A stretch of 64,000 bases of DNA, from contig NZ_JAIXCQ010000011.1 in assembly GCF_020297055.1 (NCBI RefSeq), positions 62,001 through 126,000 on the forward strand. The letters are read 5' to 3'. A model generated the notes under the pieces. That model was not told the DNA's origin, did no database searches, and saw only the letters and a list, made by a program, of their open reading frames with translations. Source of the DNA: Isoptericola luteus (GTDB taxonomy: Bacteria; Actinomycetota; Actinomycetes; Actinomycetales; Cellulomonadaceae). This document shows, piece after piece, positions 1-27,683 of this stretch; position 1 is the first letter of the stretch, and each line of letters starts with the position of its first letter. The translations under genes were made by a program, and so were the position numbers.

Positions 1-1
1 C

Positions 2-1321
2 TCGTGGATCTACATCGGCGCGCAGGGCATCCTGCAGGGCACCTACGAGACGCTCGCCGCCGTCGCGGCCAAGCGGTTCGGCGGCACCCTGGCCGGGACG
101 CTGACGCTCACCGGCGGCTGCGGCGGCATGGGCGGCGCGCAGCCCCTGGCGGTGACGCTCAACGGCGGCGTGTGCCTGGTGGTCGACGTCGACCGGTCCC
201 GCCTGGAGCGGCGGGTGCGCGAGCGCTACCTCGACGAGGTCGCGGACTCGCTCGACGACGCCGTGCGCCGGGTCTCGGCGGCGCGTGCCGCGAGGCGGGC
301 GTTGTCGGTCGGGGTCGTGGGCAACAGCGCGCACGTCGTGCCGGAGCTGCTGGAGCGCGGGGTCGAGGTGGACGTCGTCACGGACCAGACGTCCGCGCAC
401 GACCCGCTGTCGTACCTGCCCCTCGGCGTCGACCTCGACGCCTGGGCCGACTACGCCGCCGCCAAGCCGGAGGAGTTCACCGACCGGGCGCGCGAGTCGA
501 TGGCTCGGCACGTGGAGGGCATGGTCGGCTTCCTCGACGCCGGCGCCGAGGTGTTCGACTACGGCAACTCCCTGCGTGACGAGGCCCGCAGCGGCGGTTA
601 CGACCGGGCCTTCGAATTCCCCGGCTTCGTGCCCGCGTACATCCGGCCGCTGTTCGCCCAGGGCAAGGGGCCGTTCCGCTGGGCCGCCCTGTCGGGGGAC
701 CCCCGCGACATCGCCGCCACCGACCGGGCCGTGCTCGACCTCTTCCCTGACGACGACCACCTGCACCGGTGGATCCGCGCGGCCCAGGAGCGGGTCGCGT
801 TCCAGGGGCTGCCCGCGCGCATCTGCTGGCTCGGCCACGGCGAGCGCGACCGGGCGGGCCTCGCGTTCAACGACCTGGTCGCGTCGGGCGAGGTCAGCGC
901 GCCGGTCGTCATCGGCCGCGACCACCTCGACGCGGGCTCCGTCGCGTCCCCGTACCGGGAGACGGAGGGCATGGCCGACGGCTCCGACGCCATCGCGGAC
1001 TGGCCGCTGCTCAACGCTCTCACCGCCGCGTCGTCGGGCGCGACCTGGGTGTCGCTGCACCACGGCGGGGGCGTCGGGATGGGTCGCTCGATCCACGCCG
1101 GGCAGGTCTCCGTGGCGGACGGGACGCCGCTGGCCGCCGTGAAGCTGGCGCGCGTGCTGTCGAACGACCCGGGGCTCGGCGTGCTGCGGCACGTCGACGC
1201 CGGCTACGACGACGCCACGGCCGCCGCCGAGCGCGGCGGCCTGCGCGTGCCCATGCTGGAGGCGGGGGACGCCGGGGTCACCGGGGTCACAGGGGTCACC
1301 GAGCCGCAGCGGGAGGACTGA
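2..1321 (+). CDS. hutU: Urocanate hydratase, 3' portion (5' end outside window)
   Basis: Urocanase converts urocanate to 4-imidazolone-5-propionate in cytosolic histidine degradation. The frame is open from the window edge and begins [20 protein letters not shown], an internal urocanase segment, then [21 protein letters not shown]. About 439 residues remain of a usual ~550, so roughly the first fifth is missing. NAD-binding and catalytic-region features such as [14 protein letters not shown] and [15 protein letters not shown] are present. The extreme C-terminus carries three GVT repeats encoded by a 9-bp tandem repeat (about 1275-1301), which is probably dispensable. hutI follows after 2 nt, and its ribosome-binding site lies inside the end of this gene. 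Confidence 0.95.
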
Positions 1322-1323
1322 AC

Positions 1324-2610
1324 GTGCCGGAGGTCGAACATCCCGGGGATGCGACGCTGATCCTCGGGATCGGCGAGCTGACGACGAACGCGCCCGGGAC
1401 CGACGGCGCCGTCGGCCCCGACGACCCGACCGGCGTCGTCCGCGACGCCGCGCTGCTGCTCGACGGCGGCCGCGTGGCCTGGGCGGGCCCGGAGAGCGCC
1501 TGCGCGGCCGGGGTGGAGCGCGTGCTCGGGCGCGCGCCGGACCGCGTCGTCGAGGTGGACGGCCGCGCCGTCGTCCCCGGCTTCGTGGACAGCCACACGC
1601 ACCTCGTGTTCGCGGGCGACCGGTCCGCCGAGTTCGAGGCGCGCATGGCCGGGCGCCTCTACACGGCGGGCGGCATCCGCACCACGGTCGCGGCGACGCG
1701 CGCGGCGTCGGACGACGCGCTGCGAGCCAACCTGCGCCGGCACGTCGCCGAGGCGCTGGCGCAGGGCACCACGACGCTCGAGGTCAAGAGCGGCTACGGG
1801 CTGAACGTCGCCGACGAGGAGCGGTCCGTGCGGCTGGCCCGCGAGGTCACCGAGGAGGTGACGTTCCTTGGCGCGCACGTCGTGCCGACCCGGTCCGCGG
1901 GGGACGCACCCGCCGACCGCGACGCGTACGTCGACCTCGTCACCGGTGACATGCTCGCCGCCTGCGCCCCGCACGCGAGGTGGGTCGACGTCTTCTGCGA
2001 GATCGGCGCGTTCACCCCCGAGCAGGCGCGGCGGGTGCTGACGGCAGGCGCCGCCGCGGGCCTCGGCGTGCGGGTCCACGCGAACCAGCTCGGCCCGGGC
2101 CAGGGCGTGCGTCTCGCCGTCGAGCTCGGTGCGGCGTCCGTGGACCACTGCACCTACCTGTCGGACGACGACGTCGCGGCGCTCGCGGGCTCGTGGCGGG
2201 ACGGCGAGGGGACCGTCGCGACGCTGCTGCCCGGGGTCGAGTTCTCCACCCGGCACCCGTACCCCGACGCACGGCGGCTGCTCGACGCGGGGGCGGTGGT
2301 CGCCATCGCCAGCGACTGCAACCCCGGGTCGAGCTACACGTCGTCGATGCCGCTCATGGTGGCGCTCGCCGTGCGGGAGATGGGGATGACCGTGGCGGAG
2401 GCCGTCTGGGCCGCCACCGCGGGCGGCGCGCGTGCCCTGCGTCGTGACGACGTCGGGCACCTGGGCCGTGGCGCCCGCGCCGACGTCGTGGTCCTGGACG
2501 CGCCGTCGCGCACGCACCTGGCGTACCGCCCCGGCGTGCCGCTGGTGCACGCGGTCTGGAGGGACGGCCACCAGGTGGTGGGCCGGTCCGGTCGAACCGC
2601 GCCGGGATAG
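1324..2610 (+). CDS. hutI: Imidazolonepropionase
   Basis: This metal-dependent amidohydrolase hydrolyses 4-imidazolone-5-propionate to N-formimidoyl-L-glutamate, the third step of histidine degradation. The 428 residues are near the family norm. The metal-binding [15 protein letters not shown] segment sits near residue 85, [10 protein letters not shown] near 250, and [12 protein letters not shown] near 330. The GTG start at 1324 is chosen because GGGAGGA lies 7 nt upstream inside the hutU end and the protein then aligns from [13 protein letters not shown]. The gene is translationally close-coupled to hutU. Its TAG stop falls inside an inverted copy of the interspersed GATAGAGAG element, so the last codons belong to that repeat. 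Confidence 0.95.
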
Positions 2611-2690
2611 AGAGTCGTCAGGCCTCTCTATCTCGGCAGGGTGGGCTCTCTATCTCGGCGGGGTGGCCTCGCTGTCTCGGCGGAGGGCGA
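2605..2690. repeat. GATAGAGAG-type repeat cluster between hutI and hutG
   Basis: Three direct copies of a ~21-bp unit read CTCTCTATCTCGGCRGG, CTCTCTATCTCGGCGGG and a diverged CTCGCTGTCTCGGCGG. They are preceded by one inverted copy (CGCCGGGATAGAGAG, about 2601-2615), so a hairpin with arms around 2604-2616 and 2625-2637 is possible. The cluster lies between convergent genes. It overlaps the hutI stop (TAG 2608-2610) and the hutG stop (CTA at 2650-2652 on the plus strand) and encodes the hutG C-terminal residues. A bidirectional terminator role is inferred. Confidence 0.75.
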
Positions 2691-3630
2691 CGCCGGCGAG
2701 GACCTCGAGGACGCACAGCGCCGCGAGGCGCACCGTGCGGCCGTCGGGAGCGTCGGCGGTGGCGTCCACCTCGGCGACGTCGACGGACCGCACGCGCTCG
2801 TCCTGCGCGGCGGCGCGCACCAGCGCGCGCAGCTCCCACGCCGCGAGCCCGCCCGGCACGCTGGCCGGGCACCCGGGCGCCACGGACCGGTCGCAGACGT
2901 CGACGTCCACGTCCAGGTGCACGGGCCCGCCCGCAGCGCCGGCGACGTCGAGGGCCTCGCGGACGAGGTCGTCGAGCCCGCCGATGCCGTCCCGACCACC
3001 CGCGCGCCGCACGTCGTCGAGCGTCACGACCGTGATCCCCAGGTCCCGCGCCCGCCGCACGTACGCCGCCGAGTTCGCGAAGTCCGCGATCCCGACCTGC
3101 ACGACGCGGGACGGGTCCAGCCCCGCCTCGACGAGCCGGCGCACGGGCGAGCCGTTGGAGACGCCGTCGCGCAGGTCGTGGTGGGCGTCGAAGGTGACCA
3201 GCCCGGCCGTCGCCAGCGTCTCGCCCCACGCCCCGAGCGCGACGGGCACGGTGAGCGCGTTGTCGCCCCCGAGCGCCACCAACGCCCGTGCCCCGGCGAG
3301 CGCGGCGGCGACGGCGTCGCGCGCCCGCGCCTCGCCGTCGGGCCCGTCGGGCTCGTGGACGTCGCCGTGGTCGACGACGGCCAGGGCGCCCAGGTCGACG
3401 GGGTCGCCGCCCGGGCCGCGCACCAGGGCGGGGCCGTACCGCCGCAGCGCGTCCCGCACGGCGGCAGGCGTGGCGTGCGCGCCGGTCGCGGACAGAGACG
3501 TGCGCCACGTCCCGACGCCGAGCAGCGCGAGGTCGGCCGTCGGCCCGGGGGTGGCGGCGTCCGGCGACGGACCAGGCCAGCCGCCCGCACGCGGCCAGAG
3601 CGGGTCGTGGGGCAGGGGTGGGGTGCTCAC
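2650..3630 (-). CDS. hutG: Formimidoylglutamase (arginase/agmatinase family)
   Basis: This is predicted to hydrolyse N-formimidoyl-L-glutamate to glutamate and formamide, the last step of the pathway served by hutUI. The 326-residue arginase-fold protein shows the Mn-binding motifs GGDNA (near 120), DAHHDLRD (near 145) and DVDVDVCD (near 245). The start is GTG at 3630. The hexamer TACTGT lies 6 nt before it, with no Shine-Dalgarno sequence, so a leaderless transcript is likely. The gene converges on hutI. Its last codons (DSEATPPR, then TAG) are encoded by copies of the intergenic repeat, suggesting the original C-terminus was replaced or truncated there. Other ureohydrolase substrates are possible, but the context favours HutG. 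Confidence 0.9.
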   Translation of the reverse strand: MSTPPLPHDPLWPRAGGWPGPSPDAATPGPTADLALLGVGTWRTSLSATGAHATPAAVRDALRRYGPALVRGPGGDPVDLGALAVVDHGDVHEPDGPDGEARARDAVAAALAGARALVALGGDNALTVPVALGAWGETLATAGLVTFDAHHDLRDGVSNGSPVRRLVEAGLDPSRVVQVGIADFANSAAYVRRARDLGITVVTLDDVRRAGGRDGIGGLDDLVREALDVAGAAGGPVHLDVDVDVCDRSVAPGCPASVPGGLAAWELRALVRAAAQDERVRSVDVAEVDATADAPDGRTVRLAALCVLEVLAGVALRRDSEATPPR

Positions 3631-3636
3631 CCGGCG

Positions 3637-3642
3637 ACAGTA
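3637..3642 (-). promoter_or_regulatory. -10 element of a leaderless hutG promoter
   Basis: TACTGT on the minus strand is followed by 6 nt and then the GTG start of hutG. The spacing puts the transcription start on or next to the start codon. No -35 element is obvious. Confidence 0.5.
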
Positions 3643-3759
3643 CGTCGGCGTATGACGACGGTCACGTGGGGGAGCATCGGCGCCTCGACGCTGCTAGCCT
3701 CCTCGTGTCCGCGGGTCACCGGCCCGCGCCGTATCGCCCACGACTCCGTTGGAGATCCC

Positions 3760-3846
3760 GTGACCGTCAGCGTCCCCGTGAGGAACCTCCTCACCGCGCG
3801 CCTCGATGTCGACTTCCGTCGCGTCGCCAGCGCGCTGTGTCGCTGA
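3760..3846 (+). CDS. Putative cysteine-responsive leader peptide (28 aa)
   Basis: A GTG start with GGAG 5 nt upstream opens a 28-codon frame ending LTARLDVDFRRVASALCR and TGA. From memory, this closely resembles short actinobacterial leader peptides with a pattern like L-T-x-R-x-x-V-D-x-x-R-V-A-S-A-x-C-R found upstream of sulfur-metabolism and transport genes. In those, a Cys codon close to the stop lets ribosome stalling sense cysteinyl-tRNA. Here the Cys codon TGT is second to last. A perfect 8-bp hairpin follows 12 nt after the stop, and the next gene 243 nt downstream is a DAACS transporter. Regulation by cysteine availability is an inference. Confidence 0.7.
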   Translation: MTVSVPVRNLLTARLDVDFRRVASALCR

Positions 3847-4089
3847 CCCTTCGCTGACCGCCGTCGACGCCGACGGCGTAGCACCCCGGCGCCTGCCGAT
3901 CCCTGGTCCTCGGTGACCGCCGTCGTCCCCTGACGACCGCGCCGCCCCGACCGCCCCGGCCTGTGAGCGCCCGCCGCACGCGTCCGTGCGCCCGTCGTCC
4001 CCGGACGACGTCCCCTGCCCGACGGCGCCCCTACCCTTGCGCGCCGCCATCCCCGGTGCCACCCGGCACCAGAGGCGAAAGGTTCCCTC
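3847..4089 (+). promoter_or_regulatory. Leader region between the leader peptide and the DAACS gene
   Basis: These 243 nt hold no convincing gene. They contain two short hairpins (3859-3878 and 4055-4070), and the second abuts the sequence AGAGGCGAAAGG that serves the GTG start at 4090. The layout of short ORF, hairpin, C-rich spacer, hairpin over the ribosome-binding site and transporter gene fits a regulated 5' untranslated region. A C-rich, G-poor stretch (about 3880-4000) could be a Rho-loading site. Confidence 0.45.
3859..3878 (+). promoter_or_regulatory. Hairpin after the leader peptide (possible attenuator)
   Basis: CGCCGTCG-ACGC-CGACGGCG forms a perfect 8-bp stem with a 4-nt loop, 12 nt after the leader-peptide stop codon. 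A stalled or released ribosome on the leader could affect its folding. There is no U-tract, so Rho-dependent or translational control is as likely as intrinsic termination. A second hairpin (GGTGCC-ACCC-GGCACC, 4055-4070) lies directly before the ribosome-binding site of the transporter gene. Confidence 0.45.
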
Positions 4090-5538
4090 GTGTCCCGCAC
4101 CTCCACGGCGAAGATCCCCGGCACGTCTGCGCGTGCCCGCGGACTGCGTCTTCCCTCGTTCTCCGTCCAGATCCTGCTGGGCCTGGTGCTCGGCGTGCTG
4201 CTCGGCTGGGCGGCCCTGGCCCTGGGCCCGCAGGCCGACGGCGAGACGCCCAACGGCCTGACCACGACGCTCGACACCATCGGCTCGTCGTTCGTCACCC
4301 TGCTCAAGGCGATCGTGCCGCCGCTGATCTTCACGGCGATCGTCGCGTCGATCGCCAACCTGCGCACCGTCACGAACGCCGCCCGCCTGGCCGGCCAGAC
4401 CCTGCTGTGGTTCGCGATCACCGCCGCGATCTCCGTGGCCATCGGCATCGGCCTGGGCCTCGTGTTCCAGCCCGGCAACACCACGACGCTCACGACGGCG
4501 GACGCCGCCGAGCCGTCGCGCACCGGCACGTGGCTGGACTTCCTCAACGGCCTGATCCCGAGCAACGTGCTGGGCCTGGGCGCCTCGACGTCGGTCGAGG
4601 CGGGCGCCGACGGCGCGCTCAGCGCCGAGACGGGCGTGAGCTTCAACGTGCTGCAGATCCTCGTGGTCGCGCTCGTCATCGGCATCGCGGCGCTCAAGTC
4701 GGGCGCCAAGGCGGACCCGTTCCTGGCGTTCAACCGGTCCGCACTCGCCATCGTGCAGAAGGTGCTGTGGTGGATCATCCGCCTGGCACCGCTGGGCACG
4801 ATGGGCCTCATCGGCTACGCCGTCGCGACGTACGGCTGGGAGTCGCTGCGCTCGCTCGCGTCGTTCGCGGCGGCGGTCTACGTGGGCCTCGCCCTGGTGC
4901 TGTTCGTCGTCTACCCGGTGCTGCTGCGAGTCAACGGCCTGAGCGTCCTGTCCTGGTTCCGCGGCGCGTGGCCGGCGATCCAGCTCGCGTTCGTGTCCCG
5001 CTCCTCGATCGGCACCCTGCCCGTGACGGAGCGCGTCACCGAGCGCAACCTCGGCGTCCCGAGCGAGTACGCGTCGTTCGCCGTGCCGCTGGGTGCCACC
5101 ACCAAGATGGACGGCTGCGCCTCGATCTACCCCGCGATCTCGGCGATCTTCGTGGCGCAGATCTTCGGCGTCGACCTGTCGGTAACGGACTACCTGCTCA
5201 TCGCGTTCGTCTCCGTGGTGGGCTCGGCGGCGACCGCCGGCCTCACCGGCGCGATGGTCATGCTCACGCTGACGCTGTCGACGCTGGGGCTGCCGCTCGC
5301 GGGCGTCGGGCTGCTGCTCGCCGTCGACCCGATCCTCGACATGGGCCGCACCGCGGTGAACGTCGCGGGCCAGACTCTGGTGCCGACGATCGTCGCCAAG
5401 CGCGAGGGCATCCTCGACCTCGAGCGGTTCCGCGCCGCGTCGGCGGAGCACCTGTTCGCCGACGACGAGCCGGAGTCCGCGGACGCCGCCGAGGCGCCCG
5501 CCGAGCGTGAGCTGGCGGAGGCCACCGCGCGCGGCTGA
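4090..5538 (+). CDS. Dicarboxylate/amino acid:cation symporter (DAACS), possible L-cystine importer
   Basis: This 482-residue inner-membrane symporter of the DAACS (GltP/DctA/TcyP) family has about eight membrane segments and two re-entrant hairpins. Family marks are VTLLKAIVPPLIFTAIV near 75, the hairpin SRSSIGTLPV near 300 (family pattern S-S-x-x-T-L-P), TTKMDGCAS near 335 and the transport-core DMGRTAVNVAGQ near 415. The GTG start at 4090 is preceded by GAGG and GAAAGG. Family members carry dicarboxylates, glutamate, serine or cystine, and sequence alone does not decide which. The Cys-containing leader peptide upstream favours cystine or another sulfur amino acid. A 28-nt perfect palindrome follows the gene. 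Confidence 0.85.
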   Translation: MSRTSTAKIPGTSARARGLRLPSFSVQILLGLVLGVLLGWAALALGPQADGETPNGLTTTLDTIGSSFVTLLKAIVPPLIFTAIVASIANLRTVTNAARLAGQTLLWFAITAAISVAIGIGLGLVFQPGNTTTLTTADAAEPSRTGTWLDFLNGLIPSNVLGLGASTSVEAGADGALSAETGVSFNVLQILVVALVIGIAALKSGAKADPFLAFNRSALAIVQKVLWWIIRLAPLGTMGLIGYAVATYGWESLRSLASFAAAVYVGLALVLFVVYPVLLRVNGLSVLSWFRGAWPAIQLAFVSRSSIGTLPVTERVTERNLGVPSEYASFAVPLGATTKMDGCASIYPAISAIFVAQIFGVDLSVTDYLLIAFVSVVGSAATAGLTGAMVMLTLTLSTLGLPLAGVGLLLAVDPILDMGRTAVNVAGQTLVPTIVAKREGILDLERFRAASAEHLFADDEPESADAAEAPAERELAEATARG

Positions 5539-5548
5539 CCCTGAGGTC

Positions 5549-5601
5549 GTTGTGAGCGGGGGCCCTCGGGTGGACGACCTCCTCCTCGAGGAGGAGGTCG
5601 T
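5549..5601. terminator. Perfect 28-nt palindrome downstream of the DAACS gene
   Basis: Positions 5574-5601 form a self-complementary sequence of 14+14 nt centred on CTCGAG (5585-5590), with ACGACCTCCTC as the left arm start. It has no loop and no U-tract. Just before it is TTGTGAGCGGG (about 5550-5560), matching the core of the palindromes at 54102 and 57445. It probably acts as a terminator for the DAACS gene. An operator is the alternative. Confidence 0.55.
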
Positions 5602-26315: not shown

Positions 26316-27683
26316 ATGACTGCTGCCGTCCCGCCGCCCTCCGCCACGACCGATCCCGACGTCGCCGACGCCTGGGCCGCGCCGGTCGCAGAAGGCCCCC
26401 TGGACGCGACGGTCGACATCCCCGGCAGCAAGTCGCTGACCAACCGCCTGCTCGTGCTCGCGGCGCTCGCCGACGGGCCGGGCACCCTGCACGGCGCGCT
26501 GCGCTCGCGCGACGCGGACCTCATGATCGAGGCCCTGCGCACCCTCGGGGTCGAGATCTCCGAGGGCGCCTCGCCCAGCACCCTGCACGTGCGGCCCGCA
26601 CCGCTGCGCGGCGGGGTCGAGGTCGACACCGGGCTGGCCGGGACCGTCATGCGGTTCCTGCCGCCCGTCGCCGCCCTCGCCGACGGCCCCGTGCGCTTCG
26701 ACGGCGACCCGGCCGCCCGCGTGCGCCCGATGCTTCCCGTGCTCGCCGGGCTGCACGGCCTCGGCGTGCGGATCACCGGCGACGGGCCCGAGCTGCCCAC
26801 CCACCTGCCGTTCACCGTGCACGGCACCGGCCGCGTCGTGGGCGGCGCCGTCGACGTCGACGCCTCGGCGTCGTCCCAGTTCGTCTCGGGCCTGCTGCTC
26901 GCCGCCGCGCGGTTCGAGCGAGGGCTGGCGCTGCGTCACATCGGGACGACGCTGCCGAGCCTCCCGCACATCGACATGACGGTGGCCACCCTGCGCGACG
27001 TCGGCGTGCGCGTCGACAACTCGCGCGACGGCATCTGGGAGGTCGCCCCCGGCCCGATCCGCGCCCGCGACGTGCGTGTCGAGCCCGACCTGTCCAACGC
27101 GGCCCCGTTCCTGGCCGCGGCGCTCGTGGCCGGCGGCACCGTGCGGGTCCCCGGCTGGCCGGCGGCCACCACCCAGCCGGGGGCCCTGGTGCCCGGCCTG
27201 CTCGAGCGCATGGGTGCCACCACCGCCGTCGTGCCCGGCGCGGACGGCGACGTCCTCGAGGTCACCGGCACCGGCGAGATCCACGGCCTCGACGTGGACC
27301 TGCACGCCGCGGGCGAGCTCGCGCCGACGTTCGCCGCCCTCGCCGCGCTCGCCGGCTCCCCCACCCGGCTGCGCGGCATCGCGCACCTGCGAGGCCACGA
27401 GACCGACCGCCTGGCCGCGCTCGCGGCCGAGATCACCCGGCTCGGCGGGCAGTGCGAGGAGACCCGCGACGGTCTGGTCATCACCCCGCGGCCCCTGCAC
27501 GGCGGCGTCTTCCGCACCTACGCCGACCATCGGATGGCGACCTCCGGCGCCCTGCTGGGGCTGCGCGTGCCCGGGATCCGGGTCGAGGACGTCGCCACGA
27601 CGGCCAAGACCCTGCCCGGCTTCGACGGGATGTGGGAGCGCATGCTCGGCGGCGCCCCGGCCGGGCCGGGGGCCGTCGCCTGA
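26316..27683 (+). CDS. aroA: 3-Phosphoshikimate 1-carboxyvinyltransferase (EPSP synthase)
   Basis: Joins shikimate-3-phosphate and phosphoenolpyruvate in the sixth step of the shikimate pathway, in the cytosol. 455 residues with the paired inside-out barrels. Conserved segments: [19 protein letters not shown] near 35 (active-site Lys/Ser), [15 protein letters not shown] near 108, [16 protein letters not shown] near 188, [16 protein letters not shown] near 355, and the terminal [13 protein letters not shown] near 400. The stop overlaps the rsgA start (TGATG). In actinobacteria aroA and rsgA are commonly adjacent. Confidence 0.97.

Follow-up and report, generated by a model that had tools for sequence, protein, structure and literature searches.

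The open reading frame at positions 3760–3846 of the forward strand of the window, the 64,000-nucleotide stretch of Isoptericola luteus DNA that was analysed, probably encodes a cis-acting leader peptide that senses cysteine and controls the transporter gene behind it. The transporter would then most likely take up cystine or some other sulfur amino acid. The peptide is conserved and precedes orthologous transporters, leaders of its family keep company with sulfur genes, the codon for its cysteine is strongly biased, and the spacer that follows is rich in cytosine. We infer from these observations a response to cysteine, ribosome stalling at the UGU codon, a Rho-dependent step, and the substrate of the transporter.

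Structure of the leader locus

The leader peptide, VTVSVPVRNLLTARLDVDFRRVASALCR, is encoded by 28 codons beginning with GTG and followed by a TGA stop. Its C-terminal end, VDFRRVASALCR, contains the only cysteine codon of the frame, a TGT at positions 3838–3840 (forward strand), which lies nine residues past Asp-18. A Shine-Dalgarno sequence, GGAG, is located at positions 3751–3754 of the same strand, five nucleotides upstream of the start codon. The initial annotation, which described a 28-codon frame that ends with cysteine and has a Shine-Dalgarno sequence, is thus confirmed in this respect. The ribosome-binding site is retained in all six of the loci from the same genus, which share the form TGGAG..CC.GTG across the Shine-Dalgarno sequence and start codon.

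The conserved Shine-Dalgarno sequence argues for a transcript with a 5′ untranslated region, as compared with the leaderless start of the polycysteine open reading frames of mycobacteria, which Canestrari et al. reportedly described in 2020 as responsive to cysteine. The mycobacterial attenuators also carry cysteine codons in a short upstream frame ahead of cysteine genes. By contrast, the frame in the window has a single cysteine codon instead of a run, is led by a Shine-Dalgarno sequence, and is separated from the transporter by a spacer of 243 nucleotides between its stop and the GTG start codon. The hexamer TAGCCT at positions 3695–3700 (forward strand) is a possible −10 element of the leader transcript, and inspection by eye showed a TAnnnT hexamer ahead of the leader in each of the six regions from the genus. 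The region from 3500 to 4200 contains no sigma-70 consensus sites around the leader. Searches of Pfam with the peptide and of Rfam with positions 3400–4300 gave no matches.

The locus is part of a repeated segment. Positions 27445–67560 of contig C3, which include positions 1–5560 of the window and extend to 22 nucleotides past the stop codon of the transporter, are identical to positions 1–40116 of contig C1 wherever the two were compared, with 2,000 bases lying outside the comparison. One border of the duplicate coincides with the first base of contig C1, so that the repeat is due either to misassembly or to a duplication of approximately 40 kb that happened very recently.

Conservation of the peptide upstream of transporter orthologs

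Six of the 18 genomes sampled from the genus contain a close ortholog of the transporter, and a seventh contains a distant paralog only. The peptide is present upstream of all six close orthologs, with its stop codon located 163–243 nucleotides before the start codon of the transporter and its Shine-Dalgarno sequence retained. The same six genomes are the only ones of the 18 in which a match to the NCBIfam model NF042934, among those listed, reaches the sensor codon; two partial matches in genome G017 end short of the sensor position. Two distant paralogs of the transporter (L014 and L016) have no such peptide within 450 nucleotides upstream.

The search of orthologous upstream regions that was proposed with the initial annotation was extended beyond the genus to 80 named loci and 24 further loci from the family, which gave 109 testable loci in all, because no upstream sequence was available for L090. 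A profile of the peptide was run on stop-to-stop frames in the 600 nucleotides upstream of each gene with a cut-off of 9 bits. The profile recognized a leader in 71 of the 109 orthologs, which belong to several orders: 41 of the 80 named loci and all 30 of the loci from the genus and family. None of 302 control strands (105 antisense, 98 downstream, and 99 downstream-reverse) reached the cut-off, and the best of them scored 6.1 bits. When the four key positions of the profile were masked, 57 loci still scored at least 9 bits, and again none of the controls did. The genera with leaders include Cellulosimicrobium, Cellulomonas, Paraoerskovia, Sediminihabitans, Luteimicrobium, Actinotalea, Georgenia, Nocardioides, Jiangella, Blastococcus, and Geodermatophilus. 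The remaining 38 testable orthologs scored below the cut-off, including the Nocardiopsis locus L070, in which a sequence with a score of 8.5 bits resembles a leader by eye. Within 600 nucleotides upstream, the peptide is absent from the examined orthologs of Arthrobacter-type bacteria, Microbacterium, Cryobacterium, Leucobacter, Devosia, and rhizobia, and also from the closer loci L025, L028, L029, L030, L033, L035, L039, L042, and L050.

The model NF042934 provides a test that is independent of our profile, as there is no sign that it was built on this gene. It gave at least 64 matches with E ≤ 5e-4 in 200 genomes of the family, and 52 of the 64 listed matches are on the same strand as this transporter and 62–360 nucleotides upstream of it, a distance counted from the last position of the leader match to the first position of the transporter match. 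The transporter is encoded in 78 of the family genomes, at least 52 of which have the leader at E ≤ 5e-4; six genomes of the genus match at a looser cut-off. The expectation that a conserved cysteine leader peptide precedes orthologous transporters is therefore strongly borne out by both searches.

It is highly improbable that the open reading frame arose by chance, or that the conserved entity is a DNA or RNA element rather than a translated peptide. The codons GTC, GCC, AGC, and TGT are nearly fixed, which hints that the nucleotides are constrained as well. Nevertheless, the controls are empty, the Shine-Dalgarno sequence and the frame are retained, and the amino acids at the key positions stay the same while their codons vary. 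On these grounds, a chance frame was rejected.

Relationship to the actinobacterial cysteine leaders

NF042934 describes a putative leader peptide (type cis_reg_atten) and belongs together with the cysteine-rich leaders NF042936 (Ms4527A) and NF042933 (Ms5788A). The common motif, R..VDL.RVASALC, places the cysteine near the end of a small frame. The window leader has the corresponding core, R..VD[LF].RVASALC, as the terminal part of a small open reading frame with a ribosome-binding site. It matches NF042934 with an E-value of 8.9e-5 and a score of 22.0 bits, which does not reach the curated cut-off of 27 bits, and it differs from the family in having one cysteine and in preceding a transporter of the DAACS type. 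Eight of ten orthologous leaders that were scanned pass the cut-off; one scores 26.9 bits, and one is not listed for that model. The assignment of the window leader to the family is thus based on the scores of its orthologs and not on its own. Because the peptide is conserved before the transporters, and leaders in the class mostly precede sulfur genes, the sequence comparisons add the window leader, as a new member, to the family of cysteine leaders already known from actinobacteria.

The sulfur company of the family was determined in a sample of 148 genomes from the class, at least 109 of which have a match to NF042934 at E ≤ 0.001. The longest frame behind each of 29 of the best 30 matches (L139 was left out), which is not always the next gene, was compared with Pfam and NCBIfam. 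Sixteen of the 29 frames encode rhodanese-type sulfurtransferases and four encode nitrite/sulfite reductases. A sulfate-type binding protein, a sulfonate-type binding protein, a sulfatase, CbiX, a luciferase-like monooxygenase, and a DUF4395 protein occur once each. Three frames without any Pfam match were judged to be in the wrong frame, a count that holds if each match represents a separate protein. None of the 29 scanned frames matched the SDF transporter family, which makes the transporter a new customer of this sulfur-linked family of leaders.

Twelve matches to NF042934 in the family genomes lie before other genes. Eight precede 2OG-Fe(II) dioxygenases, two precede nitrite/sulfite reductases, and one precedes a sulfonate-type binding protein, whose own match is below its cut-off. 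The last of them, L233, precedes a small unscanned open reading frame, with an FMN reductase 1 kb further on. The eight leaders before dioxygenase frames are from genus g9 (L231, L235, L236, L237, L238, L240, L241, and L242), and the dioxygenase frames start 5–59 nucleotides, in one case 144 nucleotides, past the sensor codon. The dioxygenase may be a sulfur-scavenging enzyme.

Leader peptides have been described before cys operons in Mycobacterium and P. acnes and before cbs in B. longum (PMC1262725). In the accessible part of that study, they are short open reading frames with cysteine codons near the stop and without a conserved terminator, for which the involvement of Rho was suggested. 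They contain runs of cysteine codons, as compared with the one codon of the window leader, and the accessible text does not use the term transporter.

A UGU codon at the sensor position

The sensor position, nine residues past the aspartate of the VD motif, is occupied by TGT in 52 of the 55 distinct leaders of transporters, that is, in all 52 that have a cysteine there. The three exceptions, all from Geodermatophilaceae, have TGA (L041 and L048) or TGG (L043) in its place and retain most of the other residues of the peptide. The same codon is found at the sensor position of all 56 distinct leaders of a class sample (60 fetched, four of them duplicates), which were selected by their place among the matches listed with their codons unseen. 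A second class sample, from the best 30 loci with L139 included, has TGT in 29 of 29 distinct leaders; two stretches of 30 bases recur between the two class sets. Ten of the 12 other leaders from the family genomes have TGT and two have TGC. The two with TGC, L232 and L239, have additional cysteine codons downstream, and both are located before genes for sulfite/nitrite reductases.

The bias towards TGT differs from the codon usage around it. Cysteine codons away from the sensor position in the 56 class leaders are TGC in 38 cases and TGT in three, and seven open reading frames of the window contain 27 TGC and three TGT codons. The coding sequences of the transporters from 71 loci contain 71 TGC codons and no TGT; however, this is a weak background, because there is approximately one cysteine per gene and the codons represent mostly one homologous site. 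In the last 14 residues of 29 leaders, sensor position included, 48 TGC and 43 TGT codons were counted, so that TGT also occurs away from the sensor site as a minority, above all in poly-cysteine leaders. Leaders L125, L127, and L128 are of this poly-cysteine kind and share a VDLCR core. The base after the sensor TGT of the 56 class leaders is C in 45, T in nine, A in two, and G in none. A protein profile is blind to the third base of a codon, and the excess of TGT is therefore not a product of the detection of the leaders. The leader sequences are related to each other, so the codon counts are not to be read as probabilities.

The UGU rule, the fixed register of the cysteine, and this transporter in the company of a leader were each absent from the literature that was searched, a search that did not extend to Canestrari et al. 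2020. The cysS leader of Rhodobacterales uses mostly UGC, according to the accessible part of its description (PMC8632094). Among our results, it is the codon rule and the fixed register that may surprise specialists.

Conserved residues of the leader peptide

The residues upstream of the sensor cysteine are found at a constant distance from it, whereas the stop codon follows the cysteine at distances between 0 and 12 codons, and two leaders of transporters extend beyond the range that was read. A fixed register is not expected of an attenuator that responds purely to codon starvation, and together with the variable position of the stop it hints at stalling assisted by the nascent peptide. Arginine and aspartate residues at positions −13, −9, and −6 relative to the cysteine would act inside the exit tunnel and make the ribosome prone to pause while it reads UGU, so that a single codon suffices. 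The leader would then combine the features of an attenuator with those of an arrest peptide. The spacing of the residues is, we assume, comparable to that in TnaC.

Arg(−13) is present in 54 and Arg(−6) in 50 of the 55 distinct leaders of transporters, even though several codons are used for them, and pN/pS is 0.11 and 0.18 at the two positions, compared with 0.57 over positions −16 to −1. Asp(−9) is the anchor of the 55-row table, and its presence in 55 of 55 rows and pN/pS of 0 are therefore uninformative by construction. A profile in which Arg(−13), Asp(−9), Arg(−6), and the cysteine were hidden nevertheless recovered these residues in 36, 37, 32, and 37, respectively, of 37 distinct ungapped matches, with gapped matches outside the count. 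Positions −11, −10, −5, and −3 have pN/pS above 1, which reflects either low synonymous change or varying amino acids, and low synonymous change at some positions means that the nucleotides are constrained too. The residues of the class sample were selected by the profile itself. Altogether, an arrest function of the nascent peptide is conceivable, with the balance of probability somewhat against it. A broader proposal extends this function to the whole actinobacterial family, whose members would be cysteine-sensing arrest peptides that stall at one UGU, specifically as a wobble-read codon, by means of the Arg −13, Asp −9, and Arg −6 motif, and whose genes would include a previously unrecognized DAACS importer of sulfur amino acids. 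This proposal is speculative and is more probably wrong than right.

The spacer between the leader and the transporter

The spacer RNA contains the two hairpins that were noted in the initial annotation. The first, of 8 base pairs, is formed by positions 3859–3878, 12 nucleotides past the stop codon of the leader, and the second, of 6 base pairs, by positions 4055–4070, both on the forward strand. They are retained in most of the six same-genus loci, in which 93% and 89% of the cells of the alignment, respectively, are paired, with one two-sided change in each hairpin. Depending on the measure, between 23 and 469 of 500 shuffles attained the observed values, which makes the covariation support for the hairpins weak. 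The second hairpin ends seven nucleotides upstream of the Shine-Dalgarno sequence of the transporter, AAAGG (positions 4078–4082, forward strand), which is itself not covered; the sequence GGCGAAAGG is invariant in the six same-genus loci. Folding of the region before the Shine-Dalgarno sequence has a z-score of −3.19 in the window and a mean of −0.61 over 25 loci, with values below −2 in three of the 25. The 25 loci come from a set of 41 distinct regions, from which 16 without a Shine-Dalgarno sequence by our rule were excluded; at least three of the 25 that were kept (L019, L103, and L108) are placed past the true start. The regulatory role that had been attributed to the hairpins is not supported, since folding before the Shine-Dalgarno sequence is not generally below that of shuffled sequences, and masking of the leader leaves the openness of the Shine-Dalgarno sequence in the window unchanged.

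These calculations also bear on translational attenuation, in which the leader RNA would sequester the ribosome-binding site of the transporter and a stalled ribosome would free it. Occlusion of a Shine-Dalgarno sequence by pairing with an upstream open reading frame is described in the accessible part of PMC13236596, which also cites work on M. smegmatis in which cysteine genes are subject to translation attenuation. When a shorter region of the six same-genus sequences is folded to a consensus, the leader codons for F-R-R-V-A pair with CGAGGCGAAAGG, the Shine-Dalgarno sequence included; however, the pairs hardly vary among the six sequences and thus provide no covariation. When the full leader is included, the pairing probability in the window is 0.00, and the openness of the Shine-Dalgarno sequence is 0.83 with the leader free and 0.82 with it masked. 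The modelling of openness started from the 71 loci, 13 of which were dropped because they had no start codon with a Shine-Dalgarno sequence by our rule, and 51 loci were left after the removal of duplicates. In 11 of the 51 loci, the predicted openness gained more than 0.1 when the leader was masked; in one it fell, and the mean change was +0.04. The folds depend on the position of the 3′ end; with less of the coding sequence included, the Shine-Dalgarno sequence in the window is 0.70 paired. The short spacers of some taxa would suit such a mechanism, which we consider rather unlikely overall.

The composition of the spacer favors control of the Rho type. Positions 3847–4070 of the forward strand are rich in C and poor in G and constitute a possible Rho loading region. 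The 37 distinct spacers, many of them from two genera, contain 50% C and 29% G, a C/G ratio of 1.72, compared with ratios of 0.96 in the sequence that precedes the leader, 1.22 within the coding sequence of the transporter, and 1.13 before 20 GC-rich orthologs that have no leader. A C-rich spacer fits Rho loading, as was suggested for the cys leaders of mycobacteria in the accessible part of PMC1262725. No intrinsic terminator, consisting of a GC-rich hairpin and a run of U, is present between the leader and the gene within positions 3500–4200. In Geodermatophilaceae and at two Cellulomonas loci, the transporter starts just 54–61 nucleotides past the sensor codon, which is short for a Rho site.

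Under the proposed cysteine control, a ribosome supplied with plentiful charged tRNA-Cys would read the UGU codon and leave the leader. The long untranslated C-rich spacer would then allow expression to end ahead of the transporter, with Rho-dependent termination as the most likely means. Under a shortage of cysteine, the ribosome would wait at UGU and shield the beginning of the spacer, and synthesis of the transporter would proceed.

Identity and probable substrate of the transporter

The gene behind the leader (positions 4090–5538, forward strand) starts with GTG and encodes a 482-residue-long amino-acid transporter of the SDF/DAACS type, which matches PF00375 with an E-value of 2.3e-101 and a score of 340.1 bits, compared with the gathering threshold of 27.9. 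The best NCBIfam matches are the DctA and GltP models, all far below their cut-offs. Comparison with the proteins of E. coli by BLAST gave 171 bits for GltP, 159 for TcyP, and 139 for DctA, and the similar scores of GltP and TcyP mean that the overall score does not decide the substrate class.

In an alignment and tree of 36 sequences, the transporter belongs to its own clade (support 100/100) outside that of TcyP, and joins the TcyP group as its sister, a placement that has weak support (87/26) and carries a warning of long branches. Like TcyP, the transporter clade has SRSS in HP1 and an insertion of one residue in TM7, GCA..YPA. The insertion is missing from GltP, DctA, and SstT of E. coli; GltP and DctA also lack the SRSS motif, and SstT has TRSS. 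The TcyP (YdjN) cystine symporters further share the TM8 motif DMGRTA with the window transporter, but the two are only 31% identical, TM7 contains KMDGC in the window clade instead of GQNGC, and HP2 differs. YdjN of E. coli is an L-cystine symporter according to the accessible part of PMC4383340. The symporter cg2810 of C. glutamicum, which is regulated by McbR and CysR, was proposed to transport cysteine or cystine (PMC2580772, accessible part). Like the window transporter, cg2810 is a member of the broad family with a link to sulfur, a likeness at that level only; it is controlled by DNA-binding regulators. Because of its presumed regulon membership and its TcyP-like motifs, our best guess is that the window transporter imports cyst(e)ine or another sulfur amino acid.

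The leader could sense cysteine and the transporter nevertheless import glutamate, aspartate, or another dicarboxylate, for example for the synthesis of thiols or in connection with the use of histidine. The DctA and GltP models are the closest in NCBIfam, and the arginine and aspartate of TM8 that align with those of GltPh-type carriers, in which they presumably have a role, are retained. The TM8 arginine is, however, also present in E. coli TcyP, which is annotated as a cystine symporter, and the TM7 and HP1 motifs side with TcyP. The locus in the window adjoins genes that were named hutU, hutI, and hutG from their open reading frames, but a match to hutG occurs in the flanks (mostly 1.5–4 kb) of only six of 110 loci, all from this genus. 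Import of glutamate or a dicarboxylate is accordingly an unlikely function. Uptake of glutamate linked to hut genes was rejected as the cause of the conservation, because, in the flanks compared, hutG is near the transporter solely in this genus.

Positions 128–3630 of the window contain the frames read as hutU and hutI on the forward strand and hutG on the reverse strand. Neighbors across the 80 named loci are shared within parts of the tree, and the most widespread neighbor family is found at 15 loci. Seven representatives of the neighbors were scanned (DUF885, carboxyl transferase, biotin carboxylase, Maf, methylmalonyl-CoA mutase, 3-hydroxyacyl-CoA dehydrogenase, and MMPL), and there were no sulfur genes among them. 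Several neighbor families adjoin leader-bearing and leaderless transporter loci alike.

Transporters of the clade are also encoded in Devosia, rhizobia and their relatives, and Novosphingobium (L056, L063–L065, L078–L080, L085, L086, L088, L092–L094, and L165). The four of these included in the tree (L056, L078, L094, and L165) fall within the actinobacterial clade, a position that suggests gene transfer. The leader is absent from the scanned loci of this set, which are all but L165.

Implications for the proposed cysteine sensing in Actinobacteria

The leader suggests a role in the transport of sulfur amino acids for a DAACS clade of many Actinobacteria whose best models are carriers of dicarboxylates and glutamate; the same clade occurs without the leader in some Alphaproteobacteria. 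The family of cysteine leaders, in turn, gains a transporter. The nearly fixed UGU codon, held in a fixed register with conserved upstream residues, would offer a cheap and direct probe of whether a leader that senses an amino acid with a single codon depends on the nascent chain and on the choice of codon.
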